Below, piece by piece: positions 1,408-16,871 of a DNA stretch of 22,784 bases (position 1 is the stretch's first letter; each line of letters opens with the position of its first letter). The notes under the pieces are model-generated. The model did not search any database and was not told the origin of the DNA. It saw only the letters and a list, made by a program, of their open reading frames with translations. The stretch comes from a virus. The stretch is taken from the IMG/VR virus record IMGVR_UViG_3300029448_000475, positions 1 to 22,784 of that record, one strand, 5' to 3'. The position numbers and the translations under genes were made by a program.

Positions 1408-1760
1408 TAACTTGGCTCCGTTGGAAATGTAACATCAGGCCAATCTGAACTAGACGGCAAGTCACGCAAAGCAGTCCTATACGTAGCCCACTCTATCTTC
1501 TTATCGTTAGCCAATGGACTGTCGTTTGCTTGTGTCCAATCGCTTTGTGCTAATAAAGAATTTCTTTTGCTTCTGTTACTAGCAGATTTTATTTCATCTA
1601 ACTGAGTTTGAGTAAGGGCATTTGGGTCTGTAAAACTTGATCCGTCATAAGTCCAACCAATACCACCGCTAGTAGCTTCTACTAAATTAGGCAAGTCAGA
1701 CAAAGAATTTACAATTATAGTATTCGTAACAACTCCGTCTTCAACTACATGAGCTTTCAT
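1407..1760 (-). CDS. tail fibre assembly chaperone-like protein
   Basis: The C-terminal half (about residues 62-115) has the pattern of the phage tail assembly chaperone family (Phage_tail_APC type): RNSLLAQSDWTQANDSPL, then WATYRTALRDLP and a Trp-Pro/Phe-Pro ending. In that family this domain follows fibre genes and is thought to help fibre folding or attachment. The N-terminal half (MKAHVVEDGVVTNTIIVN) forms short beta strands, as in T4 gp38/lambda Tfa-like assembly proteins. It sits directly after the adhesin genes, as expected. The start shares a base with the adhesin's stop (TAATG), and GAGGAG lies about nine bases upstream. Family assignment is from motif recall. Confidence 0.8.
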   Translation of the reverse strand: MKAHVVEDGVVTNTIIVNSLSDLPNLVEATSGGIGWTYDGSSFTDPNALTQTQLDEIKSASNRSKRNSLLAQSDWTQANDSPLANDKKIEWATYRTALRDLPSSSDWPDVTFPTEPS

Positions 1761-2389
1761 TAGGTGAACTCCTCTACAATAACAATACCAGCACTACCAG
1801 CAGCGCCTGTTGGGCTACCACTATCAACCCTACCGCCACCGCCAGCACCAAAACCAGTGCCAGGTTGTGCGCTCCCACCATAAGCCATAAATGCGCCACC
1901 AAATCCTAGTAGTGAATTACCACCCGAACCACCCATGTTATTCTCCTGAGAAACATTTTGGATCATACCGCCACTACCTTTTTGACCAGTAAAGTTTATA
2001 TCACCATTAGAACCCACACCGCCAGCAGAAGCACTTGGCACTGCGTTAGCTCGACTACCACCAGAACCTCCTGTTGCTTGTAAATAACTTCCAAAAGACG
2101 TAGTGCCGCCAGCACTTCCATTAGCATTGGTACCACTACCAGCACCACCAGCACCAATAGTTACAGTGACAGAAGATACACTCGAAACATCAATAATTTC
2201 TATGGAAGCGCCAGCACCCCCACCGCCCATTGCATTATCATCTCCAGAATCCCACGCCGATCCACCTCCACCACCGCCAACGACAGTGACTTTTACCTGT
2301 GCTATTCCAGAGGGTTTTGTCCAAGTTCCTGATGATGTAAATACTTGTTGTGATGCAAAGCCACCTATTAAATCACTAATGTTTGGCAT
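1760..2389 (-). CDS. glycine-rich adhesin, probable fibre-tip protein
   Basis: A 209-residue protein. Residues about 14-40 (VFTSSGTWTKPSGIAQVKVT) are a beta-strand motif common at the start of phage glycine-rich domains. It is followed by many glycine runs (VVGGGGGGS, MGGGGAGAS, GAGGAGSG, GGSGGSR, FGAGGGG) separated by short hydrophobic stretches. This pattern recalls the tip adhesins of T-even-like phages (gp38 type), whose glycine motifs pack as polyglycine-II helices and whose intervening loops bind the host receptor. The protein ends with the strand GIVIVEEFT. It follows the fibre and propeller genes and precedes a chaperone-like gene, consistent with host recognition. The start shares a base with the upstream stop (TAATG), with GAGGGAG just upstream. 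Homology to gp38 itself is not claimed. Confidence 0.82.
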   Translation of the reverse strand: MPNISDLIGGFASQQVFTSSGTWTKPSGIAQVKVTVVGGGGGGSAWDSGDDNAMGGGGAGASIEIIDVSSVSSVTVTIGAGGAGSGTNANGSAGGTTSFGSYLQATGGSGGSRANAVPSASAGGVGSNGDINFTGQKGSGGMIQNVSQENNMGGSGGNSLLGFGGAFMAYGGSAQPGTGFGAGGGGRVDSGSPTGAAGSAGIVIVEEFT

Positions 2390-2655
2390 TAATCATCTCC
2401 CTCTATTGTATCAGGGTCTACCCAATTAGGGTTAGCTGACCAAGTTGTGCCATCTAACTTATACTTGTTGCCTGTCCAATCGCTTGGTGCGTTGGTCACG
2501 TTCTCAGTAATAGTCGTGTTGCCACTGTTTAAATCTGCAATAATAAACTGAGGAGGATTACCTACTGTTATATTATCTGATGTCGCTGTTATGGTTACGT
2601 CATCTGCAAGGAGATACTTGCTTAACTTAGTTGATGTTTCCAAAATAGTTTTCAT
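2389..2655 (-). CDS. 88-residue fibre-cluster protein, unknown
   Basis: A small acidic, probably all-beta protein without transmembrane segments or cysteines. The middle has ITATSDNITVGNPPQFIIAD, followed by DLNSGNTTITENVT and a Trp-rich end (DWTGNKYKLDG, WSANPNWVDPD). From memory, similar short proteins with SKYLLADD and DWTGNKY motifs occur beside fibre genes in many marine phages, with no known function. A minor fibre or connector component is plausible from its place between the propeller protein and the glycine-rich adhesin. Both ends are TAATG junctions, and a strong GGAGGT precedes the start. Confidence 0.8.
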   Translation of the reverse strand: MKTILETSTKLSKYLLADDVTITATSDNITVGNPPQFIIADLNSGNTTITENVTNAPSDWTGNKYKLDGTTWSANPNWVDPDTIEGDD

Positions 2656-4265
2656 TATACTAGACCTCCAAGGTAAGCGTTCATTTCATCACCACTCATG
2701 TTTGAGTTAACGAGGATCTTGGATGCGCTTATTGCTTTACCAATCTTACGCCCATTGTTTGTTGTTTGCAGAACACCAACGTCACTTACATAGTAAGTAG
2801 TACCTATGGCTAAACCTGATTGCCCTTCGTTAATACCACCATTAATAGTGATAGAGCCTGTAGCAGTATTAGAAATTGCTTCTGCTGCTACGCCAATATA
2901 GTTTGAAACTGTTCTGTTAGCAGTACCATCAACAGTAAACACAGTGACATATCCAATCTCACTGTTAGAAGAATCATCATATGCTATTACAACTCTTTTC
3001 GACCCAGAGTCATAAACTGTAGTATATTTACTTGTAGAGTTTGTATTAGGGCCAAAGCTAGCTTCTGTATTAAAACTTATAGAAGTACCGCTAACTGTTC
3101 CTATAATATACTTACGAACTCTTGTTCCACCAACAGTTTCTCTGTAAAATATTAAAGCTTTACCTACGTTTTCATCAAACACTACACCAATGTCAGAATC
3201 TATAGGATCAGTAGAAAAAATTACTTCTGACCCCACAGATACAGACGTACCGCTAACAGTTCCAACAACTGCATGACCTCCGTTATCAGTTTCAGCCCAT
3301 GTAAAAATCATCTTATCGTTTTTTGTATCGTAAACAGCCCTTCCGTAACTTGGGCTTTCACCTGATACAGCTGTATCTGGACTTATTCTATTAGGTGACC
3401 CGAATGAAACAGAAGTACCACTAATTGTTGCTATAACAGCATCAGTATGTTTAGAGGTTGCCGAAGCATCCTTATAATAAATACAGAATTTATCTGCTGT
3501 TGTTATGTAAGCTAATGATACAGTATTTACCTCACCATCAAATTCTGCTGCACTACCAAAACTAATACTGGTATTTGAAACAGTTCCGACTAGCGCTTTA
3601 CCTTTATTGGAATCTCCAGTATCTCTATATACAACTAAAACTTTTTGTGCTGTAGGGCTGTATTTAACTATATTGTTTACACTTTGATTTGAAGATGAAT
3701 AAACAACAGGAGTACCAAACGATATACTTGTAGAGCTTATGGTTCCGACTACGGCTGTTCCGTAATTACTATTACCTTCATCTTTGTAAACAATAACTAT
3801 TCTATTATTTGCAACGTCATGCGCTATACTACCATGTTTAACTTTAACACCAGCAGATTCAAAAACGGCAGTAGATCCAAATGTAACTGAGTTATTGCTA
3901 GGGTCTATTGTTCCAACTCTAGCACTACCATAAGCATTATTACTCTCATCTGCCCACGCAACAACAATTTTGTTATTTGTGCTATCATAGCCCACGCCAC
4001 CATCAAATTGCGTTGAGAAGTTTACTGCTGTTCCCTCAGAAAGACTAAAAGACTCTGGTGTAGCTACAGTAACAGTTCCGTTGCTGTTTAATATAACAAC
4101 ATCCCCATTAGATATTGCACCACTCGCTACAAAGTCTGCGCTTCCTCCACCGCCACCAACCCCAGCAGCAGCTAATGCAGTTACCGTTGTACTATCTACA
4201 CTCGCAATATTACTAAGCTGCCTAGCATTAGTAATTACGTCTGTGCCACCTACTTTAATCGCCAT
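2655..4265 (-). CDS. seven-repeat putative beta-propeller, receptor-binding protein
   Basis: A 536-residue protein in three parts. Residues 1-41 (MAIKVGGTDVITNARQLSNI, ending in a glycine run) are a typical attachment leader of marine phage fibre proteins. Residues about 85-448 hold seven repeats of about 50 residues. Each has a YDxxNNKIVVAW-like strand, a DxxNSxxG turn, a VGTIS strand, then TSISFG. Seven such four-strand units suggest a seven-bladed beta-propeller. Residues about 450-536 form a conserved-looking end domain (NYIGVAAEAI, ATGSITINGGINEGQSG, GTTYYVSDVG). No enzyme motif or sialidase Asp-box consensus is evident, so binding is more likely than hydrolysis. The start is preceded by AGGAGTA and lies 15 bases after the fibre gene's stop. 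Confidence 0.85.
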   Translation of the reverse strand: MAIKVGGTDVITNARQLSNIASVDSTTVTALAAAGVGGGGGSADFVASGAISNGDVVILNSNGTVTVATPESFSLSEGTAVNFSTQFDGGVGYDSTNNKIVVAWADESNNAYGSARVGTIDPSNNSVTFGSTAVFESAGVKVKHGSIAHDVANNRIVIVYKDEGNSNYGTAVVGTISSTSISFGTPVVYSSSNQSVNNIVKYSPTAQKVLVVYRDTGDSNKGKALVGTVSNTSISFGSAAEFDGEVNTVSLAYITTADKFCIYYKDASATSKHTDAVIATISGTSVSFGSPNRISPDTAVSGESPSYGRAVYDTKNDKMIFTWAETDNGGHAVVGTVSGTSVSVGSEVIFSTDPIDSDIGVVFDENVGKALIFYRETVGGTRVRKYIIGTVSGTSISFNTEASFGPNTNSTSKYTTVYDSGSKRVVIAYDDSSNSEIGYVTVFTVDGTANRTVSNYIGVAAEAISNTATGSITINGGINEGQSGLAIGTTYYVSDVGVLQTTNNGRKIGKAISASKILVNSNMSGDEMNAYLGGLV

Positions 4266-4280
4266 CTTCGGATACTCCTA

Positions 4281-6086
4281 CTAGCTTATTGTTGCATTTG
4301 TATTTACGTTGCCAACCACATCTAAGTTGCCAGATGCGTCCAGTTTCATTTTGTTTGTGCCACTAGCTGCAAAATATAAACTTCCACCAGTTTCGGTAAT
4401 TGTCCAATCGCCAAAATCTATAGTTGTTGCTCCAAGTGTTCCAGTAAGAGTGCCGCCACTAAGCGCAAGAAATCCAGACCCAGCCGTTACTCCAGCTTCC
4501 CAAGCAGAACCAGTGTAAACCTTTAGAGTTCCTGATGTTGTATTGTAAAATAAATCGCCTGTATCTAATGATGAAGTTGGATCGCTTGAGCCTGTTCTAT
4601 AAACTGCAAAGAAATCAGTTACTGTTGAAAGATTATTTGCTACTGTCGTTATTTGAGTTATAGACCCACCGCAATTATTAACGTTTGCTATAGACCCAGC
4701 TACGGTTCCTACATTATTTGATCCACCTAGATCACTTGCAACAGTATTAACATTTGCAATCCCACCACTAACGTTGCTCATTGCCGTGACATTTGCAGAT
4801 GTGCCAAGCACATTCATATCGTTAACAACATCGGCTGTTCCTAAGATAGCCATATCTGCAACGACATCAGCCGTACCCAAGATGCCCATGTCAGTGACAA
4901 CAGCGCTTACACCAAGCAATCCAATTTCCGTTGCTTTCCCAGCAGTAGCGGTTACATCGCTGCTTATTCCAGCTACGGTAGTTACGTTAGATGAAACCCC
5001 AGCAACCGTGTTAATGTTGCTTGCATTTGAATTAACAGCAGTTATTGCTGTTTGATCTGAGCTTGTTGGTGTTGTACGGAGCCAAGTAGTTGTACCTAGG
5101 TTGTAAACCATAAGCACATTATTGGTGCTATCGAAAAATAGCGCACCGTCGATCAAAGCATCACCATCGTTATCAACTGTAGGGTTGCCGCCTGACGTTG
5201 ATTTAGCGCCTAAGTACCTATCATCAAAGTTGTCAAAACTAGTTGCTGCTGAAGTAGCTGAACTTGCAGCTGCTGATGCGCTTGATGAGGCTTCACTTGC
5301 TTTTGTCGTTGCAGTGCTTGCACTTGATGCAGCACCTGTAGCAGAACTTGCCGCTGCTGTAGCCGAGCTTGCTGCTGCTGTCGCAGAACTCGCAGCTGCT
5401 GTTTGTGAAGTTGTTGCTGATGCAGCATCTACGATTAAATCATACTTCGCACTATTTGCATTTGTTGTAAGAGGCTGAGAACCAGAGCTAGTGTGATCTG
5501 CGTTAACAATGAAAATATTGTTAGTGCCTGTATCCTTTACAATGTCACGAGCAACATATGTAGTTGACGTTGCCCAATTACCTTTAAATGTGCCAAGCTC
5601 TTGAGCAATACTTAAATTACCGCTGGCATCAAAACTAAACACTTTGTTTGCTCGATCTGTGGCAGAGATTGTAAACTCAGAACCTGTTAGTGTGTTTGTA
5701 CGTGATGCCTTAATCGCACGACCAAGTTCTTCTTCATGTTTCTGTGACATGAACACAAGCTTGTCTAAAGCTTCTTCTAGGCTTTCCGCTGGAAACGGAT
5801 CATTAGCAACTAAATCTAGACCCTGAGTCAGTGATTGCTCACGTATGATAACCACCGTAACACCACTTGCCGGAGCTGATCCAAACACAACATTGCCACC
5901 TGATGCAGACCCTACTCCGCTAACAGTGTAATGTGTCGTGATTGTCTGCGTGGTTTCAGTTCCATCAGCTGCCCTGAGAATGACAGTGAGATCGGACTGA
6001 TCAAAGATTTTAAAGCTATAGGCAAATGTGGTTAGAGAACCATTACCACTATAGCTGACTTTGTTTGTGCTGCTAGATACTGTCAT
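4281..6086 (-). CDS. tail fibre protein with T7 gp17-like N-terminus
   Basis: A 601-residue trimeric-fibre type protein. Residues 1 to about 135 match the T7 gp17-like head of podovirus fibres that docks on the tail (KVSYSGNGSLTTFAYSFKIF, then the TQGLDL...NDPFPAESLEEALDKL region). Residues about 220-285 are Ala/Ser/Thr seven-residue repeats (AAASSAT), probably a triple coiled coil. A globular segment with DDRYLGAKS follows. Residues about 350-480 are low-complexity beta repeats of twelve residues (VVADMAILGTAD). The C-terminus (LSGGTLTGTLGATTIDFG to NTNATIS) is a strand-rich end domain. No enzymatic motif is visible, so receptor contact may be delegated to the next proteins. The start overlaps the previous stop as ATGA (6083-6086), and AAGGAAGG precedes it. 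Confidence 0.9.
   Translation of the reverse strand: MTVSSSTNKVSYSGNGSLTTFAYSFKIFDQSDLTVILRAADGTETTQTITTHYTVSGVGSASGGNVVFGSAPASGVTVVIIREQSLTQGLDLVANDPFPAESLEEALDKLVFMSQKHEEELGRAIKASRTNTLTGSEFTISATDRANKVFSFDASGNLSIAQELGTFKGNWATSTTYVARDIVKDTGTNNIFIVNADHTSSGSQPLTTNANSAKYDLIVDAASATTSQTAAASSATAAASSATAAASSATGAASSASTATTKASEASSSASAAASSATSAATSFDNFDDRYLGAKSTSGGNPTVDNDGDALIDGALFFDSTNNVLMVYNLGTTTWLRTTPTSSDQTAITAVNSNASNINTVAGVSSNVTTVAGISSDVTATAGKATEIGLLGVSAVVTDMGILGTADVVADMAILGTADVVNDMNVLGTSANVTAMSNVSGGIANVNTVASDLGGSNNVGTVAGSIANVNNCGGSITQITTVANNLSTVTDFFAVYRTGSSDPTSSLDTGDLFYNTTSGTLKVYTGSAWEAGVTAGSGFLALSGGTLTGTLGATTIDFGDWTITETGGSLYFAASGTNKMKLDASGNLDVVGNVNTNATIS
4801..4908 (-). repeat. 36-base tandem repeat in the fibre gene
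   Basis: Three diverged 36-base units (4801-4836, 4837-4872, 4873-4908) encode the twelve-residue repeat VVxDMxxLGTAD. A fourth, weaker unit follows at the higher coordinate side. The bases differ mostly at third positions while the amino acids are kept, so selection is on the protein, probably a repeated beta-structure in the fibre shaft. Confidence 0.75.
5338..5400 (-). repeat. 21-base tandem repeat in the fibre gene
   Basis: Three 21-base units (5338-5358, 5359-5379, 5380-5400) encode the seven-residue repeat AAASSAT. More degenerate copies lie on both sides, between about 5240 and 5430. The units differ at synonymous positions. The seven-residue period fits a coiled-coil stalk. Confidence 0.75.
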
Positions 6087-9000
6087 CTTCTACCTTCCTT
6101 TTTAAGGCGTTCTACTTCACTGTAAGCTCGTGCAAGGTCTGCATATTGAGGCATCTCAACCAACACCTTAAAACCTTGATCTATAAATTGTTTGTTAATA
6201 CTTCTAAGCTGCGCTATTCGCGCCTTGTCTGGTAATTTTTTATATGTTTTGCTTTGCGTCACAGCTTCTAGTGTTTGCCTAAAAGTTAATGAACCAAACC
6301 CACTACGATAAACTTTCACTTTATTTTTAGCTAAACGAATGAGGTCAGACTGTGTGCCATAACTAAGGGTAATATTATTAAACTTTTCTGGATTTGTTAG
6401 AGGCCACTGATATGTCATATCGTGCAGCCGTATTAGTTCTTTTTCATAATTTTGCAGTGCATCACCATCTTTAATGCGAATACCAGTAAGTGCTGAAAAT
6501 ATTGCAGCGCCAGGACTAGTTGCAAAGCTTACGTCTTCGTCACCTACTACCTCGCCTAGTGAGTCATAAACGACTGCATTACGATCTCGCTCATCTCTAA
6601 AGAAACTATCCTTAGATTGCAGTGCATCCATTTCTTGATAAAAACTTATAAACGGATTGTACCATTCTGTTTTAGGTGTGCCGACTAAATTGTAATTAGG
6701 ACTACCGTCTGTCTTAGCATATTTATATATTCTGCGACCATCTACCTTCTGAAACTGCTGAACATCTTCCAAGGTGTAATATTCAAAATCTTCTCGTGCT
6801 TTTACCTTTGTTGGATCTGCTAAACGCTGAAACATGCGTTGCAAAGATGATAACGGATTAGGCAATCCAACAGGTGTTGAACTTTCAGCATATGATCGAG
6901 CGAGCTTTGCAGCATCGTAACCATCCATAAAAGCAACTACGTCTGCTACACCTTGCAACATAGGCAGCTCTTTATAGTACTCTAGAGTTGCAATGACACT
7001 GGCGTGAAAGTAATTCTTTTGTAACTCCGGATCTTTTGTTCTGTTAGCTCTTTGCACTGTATCAGCAGTAATAGCTAAGATGCCGCCTATTGGCTCATAT
7101 CCTGAAAAACCAACATATCTAAGCGGCCCATTAGGTCTACCAAATACATCATACAACTCGTCAACATCTTCGGGCCAGCCCTCACCTTTTATGACAAAGC
7201 TATAGGGTTGCCAGCCTGGTGGTAAGGCTTCACGTTCTTTTTGCGTTTCGGGCATACCGCCAGTAATCCGCCCATCCATAGCATACTGTGAAACTTTCCA
7301 AGTAGTAGCCATGCCTAGAGATAAACGACCAGCTGCTAATTGCTGGGCGCGTGGCCCATTTCTACCAAGCAAATCAACTGCTGATTTACTGAATGGTGTG
7401 TACTCCATCGTTCGCAAAAGTGCGTTTGTAGGAGCTGTTACAAACGGTACAATGAAACGACCTAATAGCGTTCTTTGAAATTTACCAACTACTTTTCCAA
7501 AAATACCTAAGTCACTTTGTAACGTGTCAAACTTTGCTTTTACATCTAACTCATCAGCTACGGCTCTTGTATCTAGCATAAGCATACCAGCCTCATCTAA
7601 GGCTTCTTGCTTAGATCCACCGTTTCTAATTGTATGCTGATATCTTTTGTTTAGCGCTGTGTAGAGTTCGCCACGTTGCGATATTGTTTTTGTAAACTCG
7701 TCTGCTGCCAAGAGTAAACGAAACGGTATACGGACACGTTTGCCTAACTGATCAAGTGATTTTCCAAGCATAGACTCAGCGTCTTTGAAACCTGGTTGAT
7801 ATTGATCAATGTCTAACTTGCTTGAGCCAGCCGGAAGCTCGGTACGCCATGCTATTGAGGCAGCTTTCATTGCATCACCAAAGGCATCGCTCCAACCTTT
7901 TACACGTAGCATGGCATCTTCAATGTAAATTTGATCTTCCGCTATGGGATAGCGCATTCCTAGTTGATTACGTCCAGCTCTTACAACCGAACCAAAAACG
8001 CCAGCAAAGATTTCTGTCGGCAACTGAAACAACATAAATGTCGCGTTAGAAAATATGTTTTTAAATTGTGTTGATGGTGATGATAACAATCCAGCAAGAA
8101 ATGCCTCATGCACCATTTGCTTTGTTTTTGCATAGTACCCAGCATTAGCAAAATCATTGATGGCTTTCATGCCACCTTCTTTACCTACTCGTAGCAATCG
8201 ATCTGCCAGTTGATCTGTTACATCGTCTTGACCACTATCTGCTAGTAATCGTTTTGCTTCTGCGCCAATTTGTTCAGCATTAAGCTCGCCACTTACTTCA
8301 ATTTTAAAAGACTGAAGCGCTCTTGCAGCTTCTGTTTGAGCACCTTTAAGCTGCAACTGTATGCCACTGTGAATAGCTAACTGTCTGCGAAACTTTAAAC
8401 GTATATCTGCACCAGCTCCGTTTTTTATTTGTTTTGCAAGATCTTCTAGCTTTGTTGCACTTCTTACTAAAAGCTCTCTTGCTGCCACAAACTCATCAGC
8501 TGATAAGCCACCCTCGCCAATACGCCTAGATAACAATCGATCTGTAAAACCAATTTCATCTGCTAAAATCATCATAGCGTCTTGCTTAGTCTTATTGTTT
8601 GGTATTTTGCCTCTTGTGCGAGCGACTGTTTCATCTGAGTAAATTTCACCCACAGCCGTAATCATGGCTTTTACGTCATCTGCTGTATCTACGTAATCAA
8701 AGTTAAAATCACCGCCATCTTTGAGCGATTGTATGTTTTGATCTTTTTGTGATGTCCGTAGCAATACCTCGTCTGCAATAGTTTCATCTATAACAGCAGT
8801 TTCTGGTTTAAAACCACGCTTGTCAGCTTGTAGCGCTTGCTGGGCTTGCTTGTTTACATCAATAGCTAAGTCTTCTGCAGATTGCTCATTCAGTGCGCTT
8901 TGTGCGTCTTTTAAAACTTCGGTGGGTGCTTCTTCCCCAATGCCAAAAGTTGACAATCCTCGATCTTGAAATTTCTCAACGCCCTCTGCGCTAAGTATTT

Positions 9001-9331
9001 GTGGTGCAAGCTCTCGCTTAGTCGCTGCTTCAGAATACATACCAGGTTGATCAACTAAACCACGCTCTTGCGGTGTTGGTACTCGCGGAGCTACACCTAC
9101 TGGGCTTTGCTTTGTGCCAAGACCACTTGCTGCACTTGGCTTAGAAACGCTGCTATCTACGCTATCAATAATTTTAATAACTGGCGCAAAAAGCTCCATC
9201 ACAGCGCTGCCTTTGCCAGCAACTTGCACACCTTGCGCTGGATCTGTTGCAAACTCTGTAGGCGAGCCAGCAGCATTTATCTCTGCACGTTGTGTTTGCT
9301 CTTCAGCTAGATCTTGTGGATTTACTGCCAT
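6083..9331 (-). CDS. large internal virion (ejection) protein
   Basis: A 1082-residue protein, the largest in the window. Its place between the other internal proteins and the fibre gene corresponds to T7 gp16, the protein ejected first into the host envelope. Residues 1-200 are disordered-looking and rich in Ala, Glu and Gln. Residues 200-400 are charged helices. A hydrophobic stretch lies at about 429-450, right after AGLLSSPSTQFKNIFSNAT, an SPxTxxKN signature seen in large phage ejection or polyvalent proteins as far as I recall. Further mildly hydrophobic segments occur at about 620-640 and 665-683. No lytic transglycosylase or peptidase motif is recognisable at the N-terminus, unlike T7 gp16. 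GAGG lies five bases before the ATG. An intrinsic terminator sits 13 bases upstream of the start. The stop overlaps the fibre start. Confidence 0.75.
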   Translation of the reverse strand: MAVNPQDLAEEQTQRAEINAAGSPTEFATDPAQGVQVAGKGSAVMELFAPVIKIIDSVDSSVSKPSAASGLGTKQSPVGVAPRVPTPQERGLVDQPGMYSEAATKRELAPQILSAEGVEKFQDRGLSTFGIGEEAPTEVLKDAQSALNEQSAEDLAIDVNKQAQQALQADKRGFKPETAVIDETIADEVLLRTSQKDQNIQSLKDGGDFNFDYVDTADDVKAMITAVGEIYSDETVARTRGKIPNNKTKQDAMMILADEIGFTDRLLSRRIGEGGLSADEFVAARELLVRSATKLEDLAKQIKNGAGADIRLKFRRQLAIHSGIQLQLKGAQTEAARALQSFKIEVSGELNAEQIGAEAKRLLADSGQDDVTDQLADRLLRVGKEGGMKAINDFANAGYYAKTKQMVHEAFLAGLLSSPSTQFKNIFSNATFMLFQLPTEIFAGVFGSVVRAGRNQLGMRYPIAEDQIYIEDAMLRVKGWSDAFGDAMKAASIAWRTELPAGSSKLDIDQYQPGFKDAESMLGKSLDQLGKRVRIPFRLLLAADEFTKTISQRGELYTALNKRYQHTIRNGGSKQEALDEAGMLMLDTRAVADELDVKAKFDTLQSDLGIFGKVVGKFQRTLLGRFIVPFVTAPTNALLRTMEYTPFSKSAVDLLGRNGPRAQQLAAGRLSLGMATTWKVSQYAMDGRITGGMPETQKEREALPPGWQPYSFVIKGEGWPEDVDELYDVFGRPNGPLRYVGFSGYEPIGGILAITADTVQRANRTKDPELQKNYFHASVIATLEYYKELPMLQGVADVVAFMDGYDAAKLARSYAESSTPVGLPNPLSSLQRMFQRLADPTKVKAREDFEYYTLEDVQQFQKVDGRRIYKYAKTDGSPNYNLVGTPKTEWYNPFISFYQEMDALQSKDSFFRDERDRNAVVYDSLGEVVGDEDVSFATSPGAAIFSALTGIRIKDGDALQNYEKELIRLHDMTYQWPLTNPEKFNNITLSYGTQSDLIRLAKNKVKVYRSGFGSLTFRQTLEAVTQSKTYKKLPDKARIAQLRSINKQFIDQGFKVLVEMPQYADLARAYSEVERLKKEGRR

Positions 9332-9393: not shown

Positions 9394-9579
9394 TTATTTA
9401 ATTCTAAATTGCTCTGGTAGCCCAGCTTCTTCTTCCGCGCCTAGCTCTTTGGGCATATCACCCATAAAAGCGAGTTCAAGATATTGTTCGCGTGTCATAG
9501 GTAAATTTAAACGTTGCATTAGTGCCAATACGCCATCTTCATTCCCAGGTTGGGGCGTTAACTCCGTTTGCTCGTTCAT
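9394..9579 (-). CDS. 61-residue acidic protein, unknown
   Basis: A small soluble acidic protein without cysteines. Its core is LNLPMTREQYLELAFMGDMP followed by KELGAEEEAGLPEQF, probably two or three helices. From memory, short phage proteins with a MTRExYLELAyxGdxPxEL pattern and a closing EEEAxLP occur next to internal virion genes in marine and rhizobial phages, with no known function. The first 41 bases lie inside the end of the 781-residue gene in another frame. A strong GAGGAG upstream of the ATG within that gene argues that the overlap is real and fixes this start. The gene is followed by a terminator. Confidence 0.78.
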   Translation of the reverse strand: MNEQTELTPQPGNEDGVLALMQRLNLPMTREQYLELAFMGDMPKELGAEEEAGLPEQFRIK

Positions 9580-11884
9580 TTACCAATCTCCTCGTTTCAT
9601 CTAACTCTATATCACCATTTTTATAACTTTGCCAGATCGCGTCTATATCAGCAACATTTTTTGCACTTGCTTTAAATTTGTCAGGAAACAAACCTCGAAC
9701 AGCTTCCCATGTTATAGATTGCATTTGCCTTGGTAAAATTTCACGTTCAGCAGCAGCTCGTCTATAAGCTTCAGCATATAATCCATAATTACCTGACACG
9801 CCAGTTTTTGCAGATCCTTTTGTTGTTCCCCTACCTTTTATAGCCTGGTTTTTAAAATTATGATCAACCTCTAACGAGTTGCCAGATAACGGCCTTAGAA
9901 GCCCAGCCGCTACCGCATGTGTATCTATTGTTACATCACCAAACGATGAATTAGGATCATAGATGTTATTATAAAAATTTCTTACTTTATGTCGCTCACC
10001 CATAAGTCTTGATATTGTATTAACATCACCAGCTGCATCAATTGAGGCAACTGCCTTCCCTATTTCATTTAATGATCCCCAAGCAGCTTTACTAGGTGTT
10101 CCATCTGCATTTGTTGCAACCTCTAGAAACTCACCTTCTGGACTTACAATTTTATAATCTGGTTTGTTATAGGTTTGATCATACAACCTTACAAACATAG
10201 CTCGTAATGTTGCTTGCACAGCTGGGTTTTCATCTACGATTTCCGCATATGATTTATTTTTTATTGCATCCAAAATTGGTTTATATTTTGGTTTGTTTAA
10301 TGATGGCAAATTAACAAACGTTTTTTCCATTTGTTTTGTAAATTTAAAATCTTTTTGTTTTGTAGCAACTTCAAGTGTTCGCTGTGCTAGACTTACATTT
10401 TGATACCAATCTTTTTGCGGAGACAAACCAGCTAATACACCAGCTATAGAGGTGTCAGACACATCATATTCTTTTGACCATCGATCAGTTATTGCTCTTG
10501 CACCATCGTACCACTTTCGGCTTCTTACTCGTGTGGCTTCTGGCACTTCATCATGCAAATATAACAGATTATTTTTTACATGCTCAATAAAACGCTCACT
10601 TGTTGCGTCTATTGTTTCTTCGTCCACAGAACGCATGTTTGGATAGTCTTTTGTAATGCTAACGTTAAAATCAAAAAGCTTTGGATCTTTTTTCATTTCT
10701 TCTAATCCAATGATTAACTCACCAGACATAGGATCTTCGTCTATTTGTTTAGCAGTAGGTAATCGTGTTGATATACGTCCAGGCAAATTATTACCTGTTG
10801 TAAGTTGTGTTTGTTGCCCAACGTTACCTAGATTACTACCCACAGTCGGCATTTCACCAGGCTGGTTAAGTCGTTCACCAACGTTAGACAGACCAGCTCT
10901 TAGTGTCGGAATGCTTTTCTTAATTGCTTTGCCGACAAACATACCAACGCCAGTGGCCTCTGCTAAACCAGCCAGTATAAGCAATGCACCCAAAGATCGA
11001 TCAACACCGCCACTTGTGCGACCCTGTTTGAACAATCTTGCACCCTCTTGGATATCCATAACGCCAGCAGTTACAAAATCACCCACACCAATGCCTAGTG
11101 AATTAGGGCTACCGAAAAACATGTCTGACAAAACGCTAGACTCATTTTTAAGGCGTGGCGTTTCTGTTTCTAACTCTTTTTGTATTTGCGCTGCTGTAAA
11201 GCCTTGCGCTTTCAAATCTTCAACAAAACTTTCTTCTGCTAATCTTAGAAGGAACTGGCTTAATTCTAATCTACCATTTTCTCTTATTGTTGGATCATAC
11301 TCGCCAATGACAGATCCACCGTTTCTAATAGTCTCTTCTATTTCGTCTGTTGATAGCGGCTCCGTTCTTATCTCTTCATTAGGCATGTTGTCTTGCGCTT
11401 GATTGCCAAACACCGCATTTGTTACTTCTGGAGAATATCCAGCCGCCAACAAATCTTGCGCTGTCGGATTGCCAAGAGAAGTGGCGTAAGCTCTTGCGTC
11501 CTCAATGCGTGTTTGCTCTGAAACAACCGGAGCTGCTTCTGCTTGTTCTGGCTCGCCCATTGATGGGCTTGTGCTCATAACATCTGGCTGTGGCTCTGGA
11601 TCTGGATAATACCGCTGATACTCTGGCGTTTCTCTGCCATACTCTTTGCCGTTAAGCAAAATAGACCCTGGCCTGGTAATTGTAACATCTAGCGTTTCTT
11701 CACCGATTTTGACGTACCCACCGCTAGACATTTCGGTAAGAATATCATGCGTACCAGTTTCTGGATTAAACACACTTTTTTTGTTTTTAAGTGTTTTAAG
11801 ATCTAGACCAGCCTGTTTAATACGTGCAGCTGCATTATACTTTTCAACTTCATCGTCTGTAAAATTACCAAGTAAATCACTCAT
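9539..11884 (-). CDS. 781-residue ejection-cluster protein with HhH-GPD glycosylase-like C-terminal domain
   Basis: Residues 1-260 are mostly polar, with a Pro/Glu-rich stretch at 86-125. A hydrophobic Gly/Ala segment lies at about 298-318. Residues about 400-740 form a distinct domain containing KWYDGARA (457), AGVLAGLSPQKDWYQNV (481-497), LMGERHKVRNFY (627-638), VTIDTHAVAAGLL (651-663) and QSITWEAVR (722-730). The second, third and fourth motifs match the order and local spacing of endonuclease III: LSAQxxDxxVN, LPGVGRK (catalytic Lys) and VDTH (catalytic Asp). Candidate catalytic residues are Lys633 and Asp654. There are no cysteines, so no iron-sulfur cluster. The domain also resembles an uncharacterised phage and actinobacterial family that I recall as DUF7178. 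Position suggests a virion internal protein, but this is inferred. The start overlaps the upstream gene by eight bases. Confidence 0.75.
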   Translation of the reverse strand: MSDLLGNFTDDEVEKYNAAARIKQAGLDLKTLKNKKSVFNPETGTHDILTEMSSGGYVKIGEETLDVTITRPGSILLNGKEYGRETPEYQRYYPDPEPQPDVMSTSPSMGEPEQAEAAPVVSEQTRIEDARAYATSLGNPTAQDLLAAGYSPEVTNAVFGNQAQDNMPNEEIRTEPLSTDEIEETIRNGGSVIGEYDPTIRENGRLELSQFLLRLAEESFVEDLKAQGFTAAQIQKELETETPRLKNESSVLSDMFFGSPNSLGIGVGDFVTAGVMDIQEGARLFKQGRTSGGVDRSLGALLILAGLAEATGVGMFVGKAIKKSIPTLRAGLSNVGERLNQPGEMPTVGSNLGNVGQQTQLTTGNNLPGRISTRLPTAKQIDEDPMSGELIIGLEEMKKDPKLFDFNVSITKDYPNMRSVDEETIDATSERFIEHVKNNLLYLHDEVPEATRVRSRKWYDGARAITDRWSKEYDVSDTSIAGVLAGLSPQKDWYQNVSLAQRTLEVATKQKDFKFTKQMEKTFVNLPSLNKPKYKPILDAIKNKSYAEIVDENPAVQATLRAMFVRLYDQTYNKPDYKIVSPEGEFLEVATNADGTPSKAAWGSLNEIGKAVASIDAAGDVNTISRLMGERHKVRNFYNNIYDPNSSFGDVTIDTHAVAAGLLRPLSGNSLEVDHNFKNQAIKGRGTTKGSAKTGVSGNYGLYAEAYRRAAAEREILPRQMQSITWEAVRGLFPDKFKASAKNVADIDAIWQSYKNGDIELDETRRLVNERANGVNAPTWE

Positions 11885-13661
11885 TGAACAATCCAGCTCC
11901 GCTAAAACGAGATTTTATTGCGCCCATATATACCGCTAGACCGTCTTCATATTTTTTTTGCTCTTTTTTATCTAAACTGGAAAACCACTTTTGTACGCTG
12001 CCAATTGGATCTTTTGAATCAATTTTAAAGCCTTGCGTAAAATCATCAATTTGTTGTTCTAAATATTCGTTATATTCTATTCTTAGTGCAGCTGTGTAAG
12101 CGACGTTAAACTGGTCAATTTGCTTTTTAGCAAACGCAAACATTTCTTCTCTGGTCATAGGGTTTTGGGCAATTTGTCTTTTACTTGTTTCTCTTAATAA
12201 TTCTCTAGATGCTTTTTCAAATGCTGCTTTAGATGCTTTCGCTAAATTATCGTCATTCCCAATTGCTTGCATTTCGTTATATCTAAAAGCTAACTTAATA
12301 TCGTTTGTTGCTTCACCTAATGCCTCATCACTTTCGGACTGCATTAGTTGCACTAAGTCTCTGTGCTGTGAGGGTTCTAGCAGTGGGCGGCTATTGTTGA
12401 GCTCTGAAGTTGTAAGCATTCCGGCTTGTGCCGTTGCATACAGTCGGCTGTATTCTGCTGCGTTGCCTTGACCAGGCGTAGCAAAGAAAACGTTTGTATT
12501 TACATCTAGTTCTTTTGCCAGCTGATCTTGTTGCTCTCTGTTTAGCCAAAACTGACCTTTTGCACCTAACTGATCATTAATAAAACTTTTTACTTCTAAA
12601 CCAGCAGCACCCTCTGGATACTGGTCTTCAAACTTAGCTAGGTCTGATGCATTTAATATTTGTGCCATTATCTCTTTTGTAACAGGCTCGCCATTATGCA
12701 CACCAAGCGCAAAGTTATATGCTTTTGTGTTCAGCCTGTTTTGTGTTTCTAGCACTTCGTCTTCTAGCGTTTCTTGCAGATTAAAAAACTTTGTTGCGAC
12801 TGCTATTGTATCTTGTAAAATTTGGTTTGCTTCTTCGGGCGGTATGGCTTGCAGCACGTTAATAACATGCGTAGGAATAGCGCCACTTACTTGCATTTCT
12901 TCAGCAGTTATTTCACCCCTTCGCACTCTTTCTATTTCAATAAAGGCATCGTAGAGCTGAGATGCTGTATCAATGCTAGATCCGGCATAGGCTGGCATCA
13001 GTCGCTTTGCTGCTTTTAGTAAAACGCGCTCGCTTACAGATTTACCATCAAGCTGCACAATGTTTGGATTTGCACCGCCATGCTCAACTGCCTGATTATA
13101 AGTGACCTCTAGCTGCGTTAGTTCCATAGCAACTTCGTCACTTGTGAAATCTAAGTCTGGTTTTGCAAGCATATTTACAACTTGCGCTTCTCTTGCGTCC
13201 AACGCTGCTTGTCTGCGCTTTTCTATCTTTAGATCAACAACTTCTTTTAATCTAAATCGTATTGGTATTTCTGCTTGCTTGAAGCTATTGTCAAAATCAG
13301 CAAGGGCATATTTGTTTTGCCCTACTGTTTTACGCAAGCTTTCTTGTATTTCCTTGACGCCTTGCTCATATTTAAGCTCGCCATCAAATATATTACCTAT
13401 GTCACGACTTTCGCTTAGAGTGCTTGATAACTCCATCAGCTTTTCTTTTGCAGCAAAAATAGCTTCGTTTTTCTGCGTTTCCACGAGCATCTTATAACGC
13501 ATGTTTGTATATTCAGTGGCTTCGTTTAATGCCGTTGTCAGCACAGCTCCTTTTTGTAGCTCCGCATTGATAAACGGTGTAGGGTTCATCCGAGCTGTAA
13601 TACGCGCACCTGGTGCTCTATTACTTAGTTCCGACTGTGCTCTGTAAACTGGTATTCTCAT
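11877..13661 (-). CDS. 594-residue helical internal virion protein, gp15-like by position
   Basis: No cysteines, transmembrane segments or enzymatic motifs are evident. After a basic N-terminus (MRIPVYRAQSELSNRAPGAR) the protein is almost all charged and amphipathic helix, with many Glu/Gln/Lys/Ala stretches, as in the middle ejection proteins of podoviruses. T7 gp15 (747 residues) holds the same position between gp14 and gp16 and forms part of the periplasmic ejection tunnel. Sequence homology cannot be judged by eye, so the assignment is by order and composition. AAAGG lies about eleven bases upstream of the ATG. An internal Met at residue 26 is an alternative start but lacks a better ribosome site. 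The end overlaps the next gene by eight bases. Confidence 0.7.
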   Translation of the reverse strand: MRIPVYRAQSELSNRAPGARITARMNPTPFINAELQKGAVLTTALNEATEYTNMRYKMLVETQKNEAIFAAKEKLMELSSTLSESRDIGNIFDGELKYEQGVKEIQESLRKTVGQNKYALADFDNSFKQAEIPIRFRLKEVVDLKIEKRRQAALDAREAQVVNMLAKPDLDFTSDEVAMELTQLEVTYNQAVEHGGANPNIVQLDGKSVSERVLLKAAKRLMPAYAGSSIDTASQLYDAFIEIERVRRGEITAEEMQVSGAIPTHVINVLQAIPPEEANQILQDTIAVATKFFNLQETLEDEVLETQNRLNTKAYNFALGVHNGEPVTKEIMAQILNASDLAKFEDQYPEGAAGLEVKSFINDQLGAKGQFWLNREQQDQLAKELDVNTNVFFATPGQGNAAEYSRLYATAQAGMLTTSELNNSRPLLEPSQHRDLVQLMQSESDEALGEATNDIKLAFRYNEMQAIGNDDNLAKASKAAFEKASRELLRETSKRQIAQNPMTREEMFAFAKKQIDQFNVAYTAALRIEYNEYLEQQIDDFTQGFKIDSKDPIGSVQKWFSSLDKKEQKKYEDGLAVYMGAIKSRFSGAGLFNE

Positions 13662-13678: not shown

Positions 13679-14245
13679 TTAAAACGGTCTTGGCAAACCA
13701 AGTGTGCCAGTGCCTGACCCACCACCAAACATATTATTGCTGTAGCCAAATCGTGCAGCACTACCCAAACTACTAATGAAACTTGCCGTACCTTGTGCTC
13801 TAATTCCGGCTGCTTGAGCACCACCTTCCATGCGAGAGAGTTCTGCGCTCAGTCGTGCGTTTTCTTGCTGATCATTAATCTGCATGTTTGTGACCGCGTT
13901 ATTAAAATCACTGACCGCCATGTCATACTCAAACTCTCTGGCGTTTTGCCGTAGAACACGCATGGGCGTACCTTGTGATATTTCAATACCGCTGGCTGCA
14001 TAGTTTGCTATGACAGAGCCTTGTGCTTCAGCAAAACGAAAACGATCTACACGTTCTTGCAACACCGCATTGCGATTGATGATTTCGCGTTGCTTTTCTA
14101 ACAGATCTACATCACGCTCAATAAGCTTTGCGTTAAACTCACCCACTCGCTTGGCTGCGGCTGCTGCTTGATTTGACGCTCGCTTCTGTGACGCACCGCC
14201 AAGAATGGATAGACCTAACGTTGCAATTTCAAAAAAACCAGCCAT
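13679..14245 (-). CDS. 188-residue internal virion protein, gp14-like
   Basis: A short hydrophobic N-terminus (FFEIATLGLSILGGASQ) leads into an Ala/Gln-rich helix (ASNQAAAAAKRVGEFNAKLI) and a long charged helical region. Then comes ANYAASGIEISQGTPMRVLR, a pattern frequent in podovirus internal proteins of the gp14 class, another helical region, and a Gly-rich end (NNMFGGGSGTGTLG). The length is close to T7 gp14 (196 residues), and the position directly after tubular protein B is right for it. In T7 this protein is ejected to form an outer-membrane pore. A ribosome site AGGTG precedes the start, ten bases after the previous stop. Confidence 0.8.
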   Translation of the reverse strand: MAGFFEIATLGLSILGGASQKRASNQAAAAAKRVGEFNAKLIERDVDLLEKQREIINRNAVLQERVDRFRFAEAQGSVIANYAASGIEISQGTPMRVLRQNAREFEYDMAVSDFNNAVTNMQINDQQENARLSAELSRMEGGAQAAGIRAQGTASFISSLGSAARFGYSNNMFGGGSGTGTLGLPRPF

Positions 14246-14255
14246 TCAACACCTA

Positions 14256-16265
14256 TTATACATCGTGTGTGTTCATACGCGGATACAACGCAAGAACAGT
14301 CATTGGCAGTGGTTGGGTTTGCTGCACAAAAATGCGGTCACCCTCTTCAAAACCACCAGGGAATTCTATGTCTTTATCTCCGGTAAAAAGCGGCACAGCG
14401 GTATCCATGTCCATGCTGCTATCGCGGAAGAATATTCTATCGGCATTTACGGCACTTGTGCCGACCTCTGCACCCACCGTTTCATGGAAGCGCAACGTTA
14501 CATCGTGGATGCGTTTTGGTTTGCCTTGGCTTGTGCCATCAGCTGATCCAGCCTCAATACGCAATGTTTGCAATTTGCTAGTATATCCAAGCCCTACCGC
14601 ACCACTGGTAATGGCGAAATCAAGCGTAATACCACCGCTAGAGACAGTCTCGTCAGGGTGTGTTGCACCATTTGCCAAAACAGACGTTGATGCTCCCTCA
14701 AGATGATAAAGCCCTGACAGCGTTGTTGTAGAGCTTCCAGAGTATGCCAGCCCACTATCAACAAAGAATGCAGCTGATGTATCGCTTCCAAAATCAAAGG
14801 TTTTCATCACTTCGACGTATTGCTTTGTCTGTCCGTTAATCGTTCTTTTAACAATCATGTACAGCTCATCCTCACCGCTGTCGGTGGGCAATGAGATAAT
14901 GCTTTCTACTTGCGCTTGACCAGTTCCAAACACACCGCCCAAGACATGCTTGTGCCATGCAACGATTTCTTCTTCGCGTCTGTATGTTAGACCCAGTAAT
15001 GTGCCATCAGCCCTACGCGCCCATACAATGCTTTCCGGCTCTTGCTGAAACGCAAATTCTTTAATGCCACCTTCGGTCAAATGCTCCGCTAATACTGTTA
15101 TGTCAGGCGCTGTGTAGCCGCCTACATCCACCTCACCAACGTATCTAAACTCACGTACCTTACGCGCACCTCGTTGTGCAAAGAGCGTTACATCTGCCAC
15201 TTGCACCACTTCGCTATCGATGCAGCCGTAGTTGCTATACTTGCGAATAACTGTTGATGTAGGCGTTACCGGACTGCCATTTGTTGTTGTAAGCACATAC
15301 TCGCCACCAGATGTGCCGATATTAAGAATTCTTGTAGCAGACAAATACCTGATGGCATTTACCTTGTTTGATGCAATCGTATAAATCAGCGCATCATTAT
15401 CAGCTGTGCCAGTGGTAAAGTTTAGATAATCTGCGTTTTTGCTAAACCACAATGTTTGTGGCTGATTATTACTTGCTGCGAATACCAAGCGTTGTTCAAA
15501 AAATGTCACCACGCTGGGGTAATTATCTGAGCCTACGAGGCTTGGCGTATTGTTTTCCGTTATGGTTGGCGTGGCAAACGCCCAAGCATTATGATCTGTA
15601 CGTGAAAGTGTTCTTACAGCATGGCTTGGATGCACCAGGTACATTACGTCTGCAGACTGAGCAAAACGCACATCGTTTATTTGTGCGCTCGTATACGGTG
15701 TTGTTACTTCGTAGATCTTATCAACTTGCACACCTGATCCGGTATATGTTGTAAAACCTGTTGTATTGATCGCCACACCAAACAAGTCAGTGAGCTCAAA
15801 TGTATTCGTTGTTTTATTTGCAATCAGATAATTACGCGAGGCAAGCTCTGTCATGCCGCCACCGCCATTTACTAAATAAACTTCATCTCCGTCGCTGTAG
15901 CCATGACCGTTTGACGTAAACACGCCAGCACTTGCTTTTGTAATTGCAGATATAGATTTTGCACTGCCTGTTAGAACTTGCAGACCATTACGGAAAATCC
16001 GCATGTATGTATTACCAAACTCCAGCGCATAGGTATCTGACGTTTTAAACTCAAACGGTATGAGCCTGGTGACGTTTGCACTGGCTTTCACCTCGCCTAG
16101 ATATTCTGTACCAGGTCTTCTAGTTACACCGCCATGAGGCTGCACAACCATATTGGTTAAGTCAGCTAGACCCTCACGGTATTTAGCAATGGTAACTCGA
16201 CCCTCTAGACGCGGAGATATTTCTCCGGCTGTAAAAGACGATAGAGCTGGTGCAGATCGCGCCAT
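14256..16265 (-). CDS. tail tubular protein B-like tail nozzle protein
   Basis: A 669-residue protein whose N-terminus is diagnostic: SSFTAGEISPRLEGRVTIAK followed by a GLADLTNMVVQPHGGVTRRP segment and GTEYLGEV. This FxAGEISPxLxGR plus PHGGVxRRPGTxY signature is shared by podovirus tail nozzle proteins (tubular protein B class, T7 gp12 position). The rest is beta-rich, with repeated strand-turn motifs and a middle region (LYMIVKRTINGQTKQYVEVM) typical of the family. It forms the distal end of the short tail that the fibres attach to. Its ATG directly abuts the TAA of tubular protein A (TAAATG), consistent with equimolar coupled synthesis. T7 gp12 is longer (794 residues), but many marine homologues are in this size range. 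Confidence 0.88.
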   Translation of the reverse strand: MARSAPALSSFTAGEISPRLEGRVTIAKYREGLADLTNMVVQPHGGVTRRPGTEYLGEVKASANVTRLIPFEFKTSDTYALEFGNTYMRIFRNGLQVLTGSAKSISAITKASAGVFTSNGHGYSDGDEVYLVNGGGGMTELASRNYLIANKTTNTFELTDLFGVAINTTGFTTYTGSGVQVDKIYEVTTPYTSAQINDVRFAQSADVMYLVHPSHAVRTLSRTDHNAWAFATPTITENNTPSLVGSDNYPSVVTFFEQRLVFAASNNQPQTLWFSKNADYLNFTTGTADNDALIYTIASNKVNAIRYLSATRILNIGTSGGEYVLTTTNGSPVTPTSTVIRKYSNYGCIDSEVVQVADVTLFAQRGARKVREFRYVGEVDVGGYTAPDITVLAEHLTEGGIKEFAFQQEPESIVWARRADGTLLGLTYRREEEIVAWHKHVLGGVFGTGQAQVESIISLPTDSGEDELYMIVKRTINGQTKQYVEVMKTFDFGSDTSAAFFVDSGLAYSGSSTTTLSGLYHLEGASTSVLANGATHPDETVSSGGITLDFAITSGAVGLGYTSKLQTLRIEAGSADGTSQGKPKRIHDVTLRFHETVGAEVGTSAVNADRIFFRDSSMDMDTAVPLFTGDKDIEFPGGFEEGDRIFVQQTQPLPMTVLALYPRMNTHDV

Positions 16266-16871
16266 TTATGTTCTCGCTTGTAAAAAGTCGCTTGCCTCAA
16301 TCTTTTGAGGCGCACCCTCTGTGGCATCAACAAACTTAGCATTTCGCAGTTTGTCGGTGTATTCAGCTGCCATAATCTGTTTAACGGTATTTGATCCGGT
16401 GATTGCGTAGGCCAGTTCAAACGCCAGTGCTGATGCAATGGTTTCAACAAGCCCAGCGTCATATTCTTGCGGATCTGTAACACGACCTATATATCGTATT
16501 TTTGCAATGCCCTCATCGGTAACAAGCTTACGCCCCTCGATGACATATACAGGCCCACCGGAGTTGCTCGTCATATTGTCATATGGAAACGTCAGAGTGC
16601 CGTTGGAAAACTCTAGCACCCTAAGACAAAATGGATCTGTCGGGAGTGCGTATTGATAGGCGTAATCAAAGGTTGGTGTATCGCTTTCTCTTGCCAGCTC
16701 CACACGCCTTATAAGACAGTTCCAGGGATGCAAGCGAAACACATTATCGCGCACTGAATTATATCTTTGGTTGACCAATCGCGCTGGCTTACTGTTTTCA
16801 TCAAACGTAGAGATGTTATTAGCGCCCAGCGAATTAAGAGCATAGTTTGCAATATCAACCGTAGAAGTCAT
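16266..16871 (-). CDS. tail tubular protein A-like head-tail adaptor
   Basis: A 201-residue protein matching the T7 gp11 class. It opens with DIANYALNSLGANNISTFDE, then RLVNQRYNSVRDNVFRLHPW and NCLIRRVELA. This A-L-x-x-L-G plus Y-x-x-x-R-D-x-x-x-x-x-H-P-W pattern is characteristic of the family. A YAYQYALPTDPFCLRVLE strand region and a C-terminal helical region (ETIASALAFELAYAITGS) follow. It forms the ring between portal and nozzle. It is the first gene after the intrinsic terminator. The ribosome site is weak (GGGA about nine bases upstream), which may keep levels low compared with the capsid genes. The length is typical (T7 gp11 is 196 residues). Confidence 0.9.
   Translation of the reverse strand: MTSTVDIANYALNSLGANNISTFDENSKPARLVNQRYNSVRDNVFRLHPWNCLIRRVELARESDTPTFDYAYQYALPTDPFCLRVLEFSNGTLTFPYDNMTSNSGGPVYVIEGRKLVTDEGIAKIRYIGRVTDPQEYDAGLVETIASALAFELAYAITGSNTVKQIMAAEYTDKLRNAKFVDATEGAPQKIEASDFLQART

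Follow-up and report, generated by a model that had tools for sequence, protein, structure and literature searches.

A DUF7178 domain with a predicted DNA glycosylase-like fold in an ejection-cluster protein of a podovirus, and the conserved gene overlapping its end

The virus record IMGVR_UViG_3300029448_000475, whose 22,784 bases we refer to as the window in the following, belongs to a marine phage and encodes a 781-residue protein (9539..11884) that carries a domain of the DUF7178 family at its C-terminal side. An HhH-GPD-like, two-lobed and all-helical fold is well supported for this domain by structure models, the lysine and aspartate at its putative center do not vary among its distinct relatives, and its gene lies in a cluster of internal virion protein genes. 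The end of this gene is overlapped by a conserved gene for a 61-residue protein, p61, which is new in this analysis and absent from the original prediction made for this DNA. What stands out is the presence of a DUF7178 domain in ejection and polyvalent proteins. With about even confidence, we propose that the domain is an N-glycosylase that would be ejected with the gp14-, gp15- and gp16-like proteins and would cleave a DNA base through Lys633 and Asp654, with p61 as its cognate partner. All features of the window lie on the minus strand unless stated otherwise.

The DUF7178 domain, its conserved residues and its predicted fold

The original prediction had described an endonuclease III-like domain at residues 400–740 and had named DUF7178 as a family to compare it with. 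Its location stands, but its bounds are wider, at about residues 389–781 (9542..10720), as judged from the Pfam match, an AlphaFold2 model and the structural match to the 8-oxoguanine glycosylase SsOgg. The family assignment is borne out by a Pfam scan, in which the domain scores 93.7 bits against PF23802 (DUF7178), with a cut-off of 27, as a diverged member; the same family matches 33/33 members of an alignment of the window domain with 32 viral-contig relatives. The domain also matches PHROG 3842, where its function is unlabelled. Residues 1–388 are without a recognised domain in the Pfam scan, and the N-terminal half of the protein yields a single weak phage match (E 0.5).

Scanning viral contigs returned 381 relatives. 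The 80 best of them were retained and are called the 80 distinct closest contigs below. Stand-alone DUF7178 proteins of 191–207 residues come from isolated phages as well as from viral contigs. Bacterial occurrences are rare, with 2/299 genomes of one phylum, one of them the center of the search, and 0/14 control genomes. On two conjugative Bradyrhizobium plasmids we observed a short C-terminal DUF7178-like remnant (L179:8001-8264; 46% identity over 89 residues), which adjoins a TIR-domain gene, with a phage terminase-like gene about 5 kb away.

The three sequence motifs on which the original prediction was built are present in the 781-residue open reading frame (ORF), at the places and in the order claimed. 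Motif 1, AGVLAGLSPQKDWYQNV (residues 481–497; 10394..10444), includes LSPQKDWYQN; motif 2, LMGERHKVRNFY (residues 627–638; 9971..10006), forms the helix behind the hairpin and contains Lys633 (codon 9986–9988); and motif 3, VTIDTHAVAAGLL (residues 651–663; 9896..9934), contains Asp654 (codon 9923–9925), directly followed by a predicted helix. The observation of these motifs with their lysine and aspartate is beyond chance. The two residues are 21 positions apart, as had been noted; the spacing of 18 cited for endonuclease III (Nth) recurs in the Nth-type protein compared here (L181), and a stand-alone DUF7178 protein (L201) has 17. Likewise, the hairpin sequence MGERHK keeps its first glycine and loses the second, and no cysteine for an iron-sulfur (FeS) cluster occurs anywhere in the 781-residue protein. 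Further toward the C-terminus lies another family motif, QSITWE (residues 722–727; 9704..9721).

The proposal that Lys633 and Asp654 form a conserved family center holds in alignments of 13, 80 and 181 sequences. The first, which spans virion-type and stand-alone forms, has 13 invariant columns and the second 12, with Lys633 and Asp654 among them in both cases. In the third, Lys633, Asp654, His656 (of a D-T-H motif), Ser488, Asn496 and Phe637 are each found in 181/181 distinct relatives. Residue 493 of motif 1 is tryptophan in 178/181 and tyrosine in 3/181, and in QSITWE the glutamine is kept in 179/181 and the tryptophan in 178/181. The signature common to the window form and the stand-alone proteins comprises W-Y, S, N, K, F, D and Q. 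The 181-sequence set was obtained by reducing 319 candidates to distinct ones and dropping those of the wrong length; it does not include the loci of the phage and plasmid collections or some genome loci, and the 79 non-window rows of the 80-sequence alignment were drawn from the same candidates. The count of 181/181 is partly selected, because some retrieval patterns touch the lysine or aspartate region, namely NFYNNIYD (80 closest contigs), DGHAYCIW (stand-alone viral contigs) and K[VTL]..F. The bacterial-contig pattern search, one further pattern search and the tblastn phage matches are largely free of this selection, and the lysine and aspartate of five stand-alone phage proteins are unselected, because it was the N-terminal half of the domain that retrieved these proteins.

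AlphaFold2 gave confident models for both the window domain (predicted local distance difference test, pLDDT, 94.8; predicted template modelling score, pTM, 0.91) and a compact, 200-residue family member (pLDDT 94.4, pTM 0.90). The 50 rows that VIA-align shows for the compact member consist throughout of DNA glycosylases and endonuclease III, which are HhH-GPD enzymes; the best is SsOgg (Z 12.8, 172/207 residues aligned, root-mean-square deviation (rmsd) 3.5 Å), and the list includes MjOgg (Z 12.7), TmOgg (Z 12.2) and the endonuclease III structure 1orp (Z 10.7). For the window domain, SsOgg is again best (Z 9.3, 186 residues aligned, rmsd 3.9), and further matches are DUF2419 (8.8), AGOG (8.0) and OGG1 (6.6). 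All nine rows with Z of at least 5 are Ogg, AGOG, OGG1 or DUF2419 structures, and where these glycosylase-like rows stop, Z drops from 5.6 or more to 3.3 for the tenth, unrelated row; because helical proteins can reach middling Z values by chance, the coherence of this list weighs more than the Z value itself. A Foldseek search with the compact member places 8-oxoguanine glycosylase chains at all of ranks 1–8 (probability 0.99–1.00, E 0.011 to 0.22). A search of predicted viral proteins gave 18 matches to the window domain at E<=0.001, including an ART-PolyVal-like-named protein and a 198-residue S-CBP42 protein. In the models, the lysine starts the helix behind the hairpin and the aspartate lies immediately before the next helix (D266 of the domain, helix 267–274). 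The two residues are placed in the same way relative to hairpin and helix in Nth.

At the sequence level, hhalign was used to compare 37 stand-alone members to 14 Nth/MutY-type proteins and one HhH-GPD-like protein, L359; lysine fell on lysine and aspartate on aspartate with a score of 31.7, which was reached by 0/100 column-shuffled decoys (highest score 20.9). L359 (L359:2-613) comes from the same phylum as the genome of L160, and reads GVGQKVRDFALSLFLDEYLAVDIHI, which in its Lys helix is by eye near the phage sequence GERHKVRNFYNNI. Judging by these sequences, it is possible that L359 is a bridge between the cellular enzymes and DUF7178.

The endonuclease III-like character that had been claimed for the domain thus survives in part: the fold is HhH-GPD-like, as the structure matches indicate, but the nearest solved structures are 8-oxoguanine glycosylases rather than endonuclease III. 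Strict membership in endonuclease III was rejected, because the protein has no cysteine for the four-cysteine [4Fe-4S] loop and no match to PF00730 (HhH-GPD).

The overlapping gene p61

The gene for p61 (9394..9579; 61 residues) lies in the +1 frame, and 41 of its bases fall within the end of the 781-residue ORF. Its ATG is preceded by AGGAG at a distance of 8 bases, and a TAA stop in the p61 frame stands directly before it. A profile of this protein, built from the loci of the 80 closest contigs and of one further pattern search, matches 78/80 of these contigs; the two unmatched contigs, L040 and L042, stop inside the domain. The family members are about 60 residues long. Among 238 matched loci, repeated contigs included, p61 is in the +1 frame in 237, begins no more than 100 bases before the domain end in 235, and is nested, with the main ORF continuing past the p61 match, in 127. 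It was also found in 6/13 bacterial-contig loci, all six outside the training set of the profile; the other seven are unmatched (L164, L165, L167, L168, L170, L171 and L172), of which L171 and L172 are short partial domain matches only. A further scan starting from one p61 returned 16 loci, with the domain adjacent in 16/16.

The profile matches 0/80 stand-alone DUF7178 loci (L201–L280) and 0/4 domain-bearing phage isolates (CRP-738, zth2-2, LS06-2018-MD07 and Rctr197k). The link between p61 and the domain therefore holds for the closer relatives and is not universal, as the four isolates without a profile match indicate. In LS06-2018-MD07 (L085, near 16200–16400), a +1 frame stretch, YTQENYLTVSAAGLEE, which is not a profile match, resembles the p61 core by eye; it sits inside a 3,100-residue ORF.

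That p61 is a selected reading frame is evident from its pattern of change. Divergence at the three codon positions of the p61 frame is 0.41/0.32/0.58 for 57 nested sequences and 0.38/0.20/0.63 for 42 non-nested ones, and in the nested sequences the residue likeness of p61 is 0.47, against 0.31 for the overlapped main-frame residues; therefore, the p61 frame is under the stronger protein-level selection. A Shine-Dalgarno-like word lies upstream of 74/85 distinct p61 starts, against a background of 12% (323/2,681, repeated contigs included) for out-of-frame ATGs inside the domain. Members of the family are mostly acidic; in 34 of them, the net charge has a median of -4.5 and ranges from -11 to +1, and the median isoelectric point (pI) is 4.5. 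No Pfam or PHROG family matches p61.

Two other accounts of this frame were set aside. A programmed +1 frameshift, which would fuse p61 to the domain, is disfavoured, and independent initiation is preferred, because the TAA precedes the ATG and AGGAG lies 8 bases upstream. Likewise, p61 as a general phage protein was rejected after a tblastn search with three members against 50,697 phage records returned nothing.

Genomic setting and domain fusions

The window carries a podovirus structural block that comprises a terminase-like end, a Head-tail_con portal, a capsid protein and tail tube proteins, and continues with the T7 gp14-like, 594-residue, 781-residue, 61-residue and gp16-like proteins and a tail fibre. 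The ten best-listed Pelagibacter phages have portals with 58–60% identity to that of the window. The placement in an ejection cluster, as originally predicted, is supported by the neighbours. Upstream are the gp14-like internal virion protein (13679..14245; PF24072 T7_gp14, E 2e-8; phrog_418, internal virion protein) and, adjacent to the 781-residue gene, a 594-residue gene (11877..13661) in the position that gp15 occupies in cultured pelagiphages, whose product has no confident family in Pfam or PHROGs. Downstream lies the gp16-like internal virion protein (6083..9331; phrog_6651, internal virion protein, E 2e-14), which also has weak tblastn matches to phage internal virion proteins. The tail-fibre and glycine-rich ORFs of the minus strand (1760–6086) have open frames opposite them, for example at 2103–2429 and 5122–5478 on the plus strand; these are probably by-products of composition.

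In two of these ten Pelagibacter phages, the cultured Lederberg EXVC029P and HTVC034P, the gp14-like, gp15-position and gp16-position genes are contiguous, with no intervening gene, and neither phage is among the four phage records matched by the whole 781-residue protein in tblastn; the 781-residue gene therefore looks accessory in this lineage. Across the 80 distinct closest contigs, tail tube B, gp14- or gp15-like genes lie upstream in 46 and a gp16-like gene downstream in 45, with both sides occupied in 40 and at least one in 51. No cluster neighbour was detected in the other 29, which are short contigs or distant phages. In the isolate CRP-738, an 835-residue protein encoded just behind the portal and a small ORF contains the domain; in LS06-2018-MD07, it is part of a protein of roughly 3,100 residues that comes after an internal virion protein and a single hypothetical one.

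Some relatives are far longer. In these, the domain is found in giant proteins of 1,116–3,838 residues with ART-PolyVal, InPase, LPD, RadC or methyltransferase domains, and 7/9 long relatives scanned carry a further domain above the Pfam cut-off, with ART-PolyVal, InPase, LPD22, methyltransferase and SLT transglycosylase domains in one set and ART-PolyVal, LPD38, RadC, GGDEF and methyltransferase domains in another. In the virus Rctr197k (L086:3786-9902), a 2,039-residue protein combines InPase, DUF7178 and 2'-5' RNA ligase-like domains; it is deposited as hypothetical and also has a weak ParB-like match below the cut-off. ART, InPase, RadC and LPD domains are described in polyvalent proteins, a class proposed to be co-injected with DNA, in Iyer et al. 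2017 (PMC5512222). Polyvalent proteins are defined by two or more disparate enzymatic domains, and the window protein has one recognised domain only.

Proposed function and its alternatives

From the computed fold resemblance, the invariant lysine and aspartate, the synteny and the p61 frame, we infer ejection, a DNA substrate, lyase chemistry and a role for p61 as follows. The 781-residue protein would most likely be packed in the head and ejected along with the gp14-, gp15- and gp16-like proteins. Inside a newly infected cell, the domain would most likely cut the glycosidic bond of a particular DNA base, probably a modified or damaged one, with Lys633 as the candidate former of a Schiff base and Asp654 assisting. 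p61, made from its overlapping start, would probably restrain or chaperone the domain in the cell that produces the virions.

A number of results weigh against this proposal. The hhalign probability is 31% at best, and L359 had joined the set after its resemblance was noticed; without it, in a smaller comparison with another set of 41 stand-alone sequences, the score is 26.1 and the probability 8%, and the virion-type alignment alone gives no signal. PF00730 is unmatched in a scan in which 33 members matched 12 families at E up to 10, and it is also unmatched in five stand-alone members; an NCBIfam scan gave unrelated weak matches only, and phmmer and hmmsearch found no related solved chain among the PDB sequences. 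The structure search that had been suggested for the domain yielded Ogg-type matches from confident models, but the Foldseek E-values against solved structures are weak and do not reach 0.001 with either model (best 0.011, compact member), and with the window domain it lists trichodiene synthases first (probability up to 0.14) and Pa-AGOG at rank 11 (probability 0.51). The large insertions are the likely reason for this failure on the 393-residue model, because the compact member recovers the superfamily. The Gly-x-Gly hairpin, which grips DNA, is only partly retained in the window domain, with the second glycine kept in stand-alone forms (GPK, GDK), and the domain lacks basic character (net charge -2, pI 6.3). 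Finally, two of the nine long relatives scanned, L059 and L066, have no second domain.

To these points is added the close match of DUF2419 to the window domain, which makes an injected nucleoside or nucleotide N-glycosidase the strongest rival. Such an enzyme, akin to the queuosine nucleosidase DUF2419/Qng1, would be aimed at a small-molecule signal or defence nucleotide and not at a DNA base. Its Z of 8.8 and the 9.3 of SsOgg are tied by VIA-align's rule, and the DUF2419 structures 7uk3, 7u07 and 7u1o take ranks 2–4 (Z 8.4–8.8) with 220–222 residues aligned against 186 for SsOgg. The fusion of relatives to nucleotide-related domains (InPase, 2'-5' RNA ligase-like, ART) would suit this substrate, as would the incomplete hairpin and the lack of basic character. 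However, the compact member is nearest to Ogg, Nth and AGOG, with DUF2419 absent from the 50 rows shown, a point that is not exclusive, and lysine and aspartate are in register with those of Nth/MutY; we regard a small-molecule substrate as a tentative and rather unlikely alternative. We are just as hesitant about an elaboration of the proposal itself, in which a glycosylase or lyase injected by tailed phages would serve attack or the breaking of defences and, together with the overprinted, mostly acidic p61 as a dedicated inhibitor shielding the virion-producing cell, would form a mobile cassette recombining as one unit into many polyvalent proteins.

The domain could also be a working glycosylase that is not ejected but does its work at a late stage in the producing cell, such as clearing bad bases from genomes before packaging; its place among the ejection genes would then reflect late expression only. 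The existence of stand-alone DUF7178 proteins, whose loci have no annotated structural gene in the few kilobases shown, means that no virion protein is required for the domain to work; but the fusions with polyvalent domains such as SLT transglycosylase and ART and the gp15- and gp16-like flanks fit ejected proteins, and p61 matches 0/80 stand-alone loci, which leaves late action in the producing cell less probable still. It is improbable that the fold is retained in an enzyme that is dead or has been repurposed to bind DNA or to lend structure to the ejection channel. The lost second glycine, the large insertions and the missing FeS cysteines would fit such a fate, but dead enzymes normally lose their catalytic residues, and here Lys633, Asp654, His656, Ser488, Asn496 and Phe637 are all kept in 181/181 relatives. 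As for a merely coincidental resemblance of an unrelated helical fold, the Z values that helical proteins may reach by chance and the weak Foldseek result for the window domain can be cited for it, but one superfamily tops the lists of two separate models, the window-domain Z falls from 5.6 or more to 3.3 beyond the glycosylase-like rows, and 0/100 decoys reached the hhalign score; we find it barely credible.

The reading as an ejected DNA N-glycosylase has several known systems to be compared with. Four stand-alone phage proteins, S-CRES3 gp63, Cece gp22, prophiGD54-2 gp151 and DroogsArmy gp83, belong to the same family above the cut-off, and their depositors label them glycosylase or N-glycosylase/DNA lyase; because of these earlier labels, the link between the family and glycosylases is not wholly new, and we rejected the glycosylase reading of DUF7178 as a novelty. 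The stand-alone proteins are single domains of 191–207 residues, whereas the window form has about 390 residues, with large insertions, and is part of an ejection-cluster protein; likewise, no structural gene is present in the stretch shown of the four phage loci, whereas the window gene is flanked by ejection genes. The top-listed structural match of both models, SsOgg (3fhg), and the further matches MjOgg (3knt/3fhf), TmOgg (3n0u) and Pa-AGOG (1xqo) are archaeal or Thermotoga-type 8-oxoguanine glycosylases, known as Ogg2 and AGOG. These are cellular enzymes with 9–15% identity to the two modelled domains, and the window domain differs by its partial hairpin and large insertions. They need no FeS cluster. 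Endonuclease III (Nth, PF00730) shares the register of lysine and aspartate, with Z 10.7 for the compact member, but the window domain has no PF00730 match, no FeS cysteine and an incomplete GxG hairpin. DUF2419/Qng1 differs in being a cellular salvage enzyme whose substrate is a nucleoside, not DNA, and no sequence match between it and the window domain was found in the searches of PDB sequences; its target is an N-glycosidic bond, and its structure resembles that of DNA glycosylases (PMC9406330).

DUF7178 is not named in the open-access literature searched, and in the part of it examined we found no link of polyvalent or internal virion proteins with such a glycosylase. The word 'glycosylase' is absent from the main text of Iyer et al. 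2017 (PMC5512222). Passages in three further papers concern T4-type or pyrimidine-dimer glycosylases (PMC7824862, PMC11288001, PMC10783043), and those in a fourth a separate phage HhH-GPD gene (PMC5336643).

Polyvalent and ejection proteins are a main store of uncharacterised effectors of early infection. The use of glycosylases by bacteria against phages has been reported. If the DUF7178 domain is active, base excision would be added to the chemistries delivered by phages along with their DNA, and p61, a small protein that in this analysis was found only beside this domain, offers a testable handle on it.

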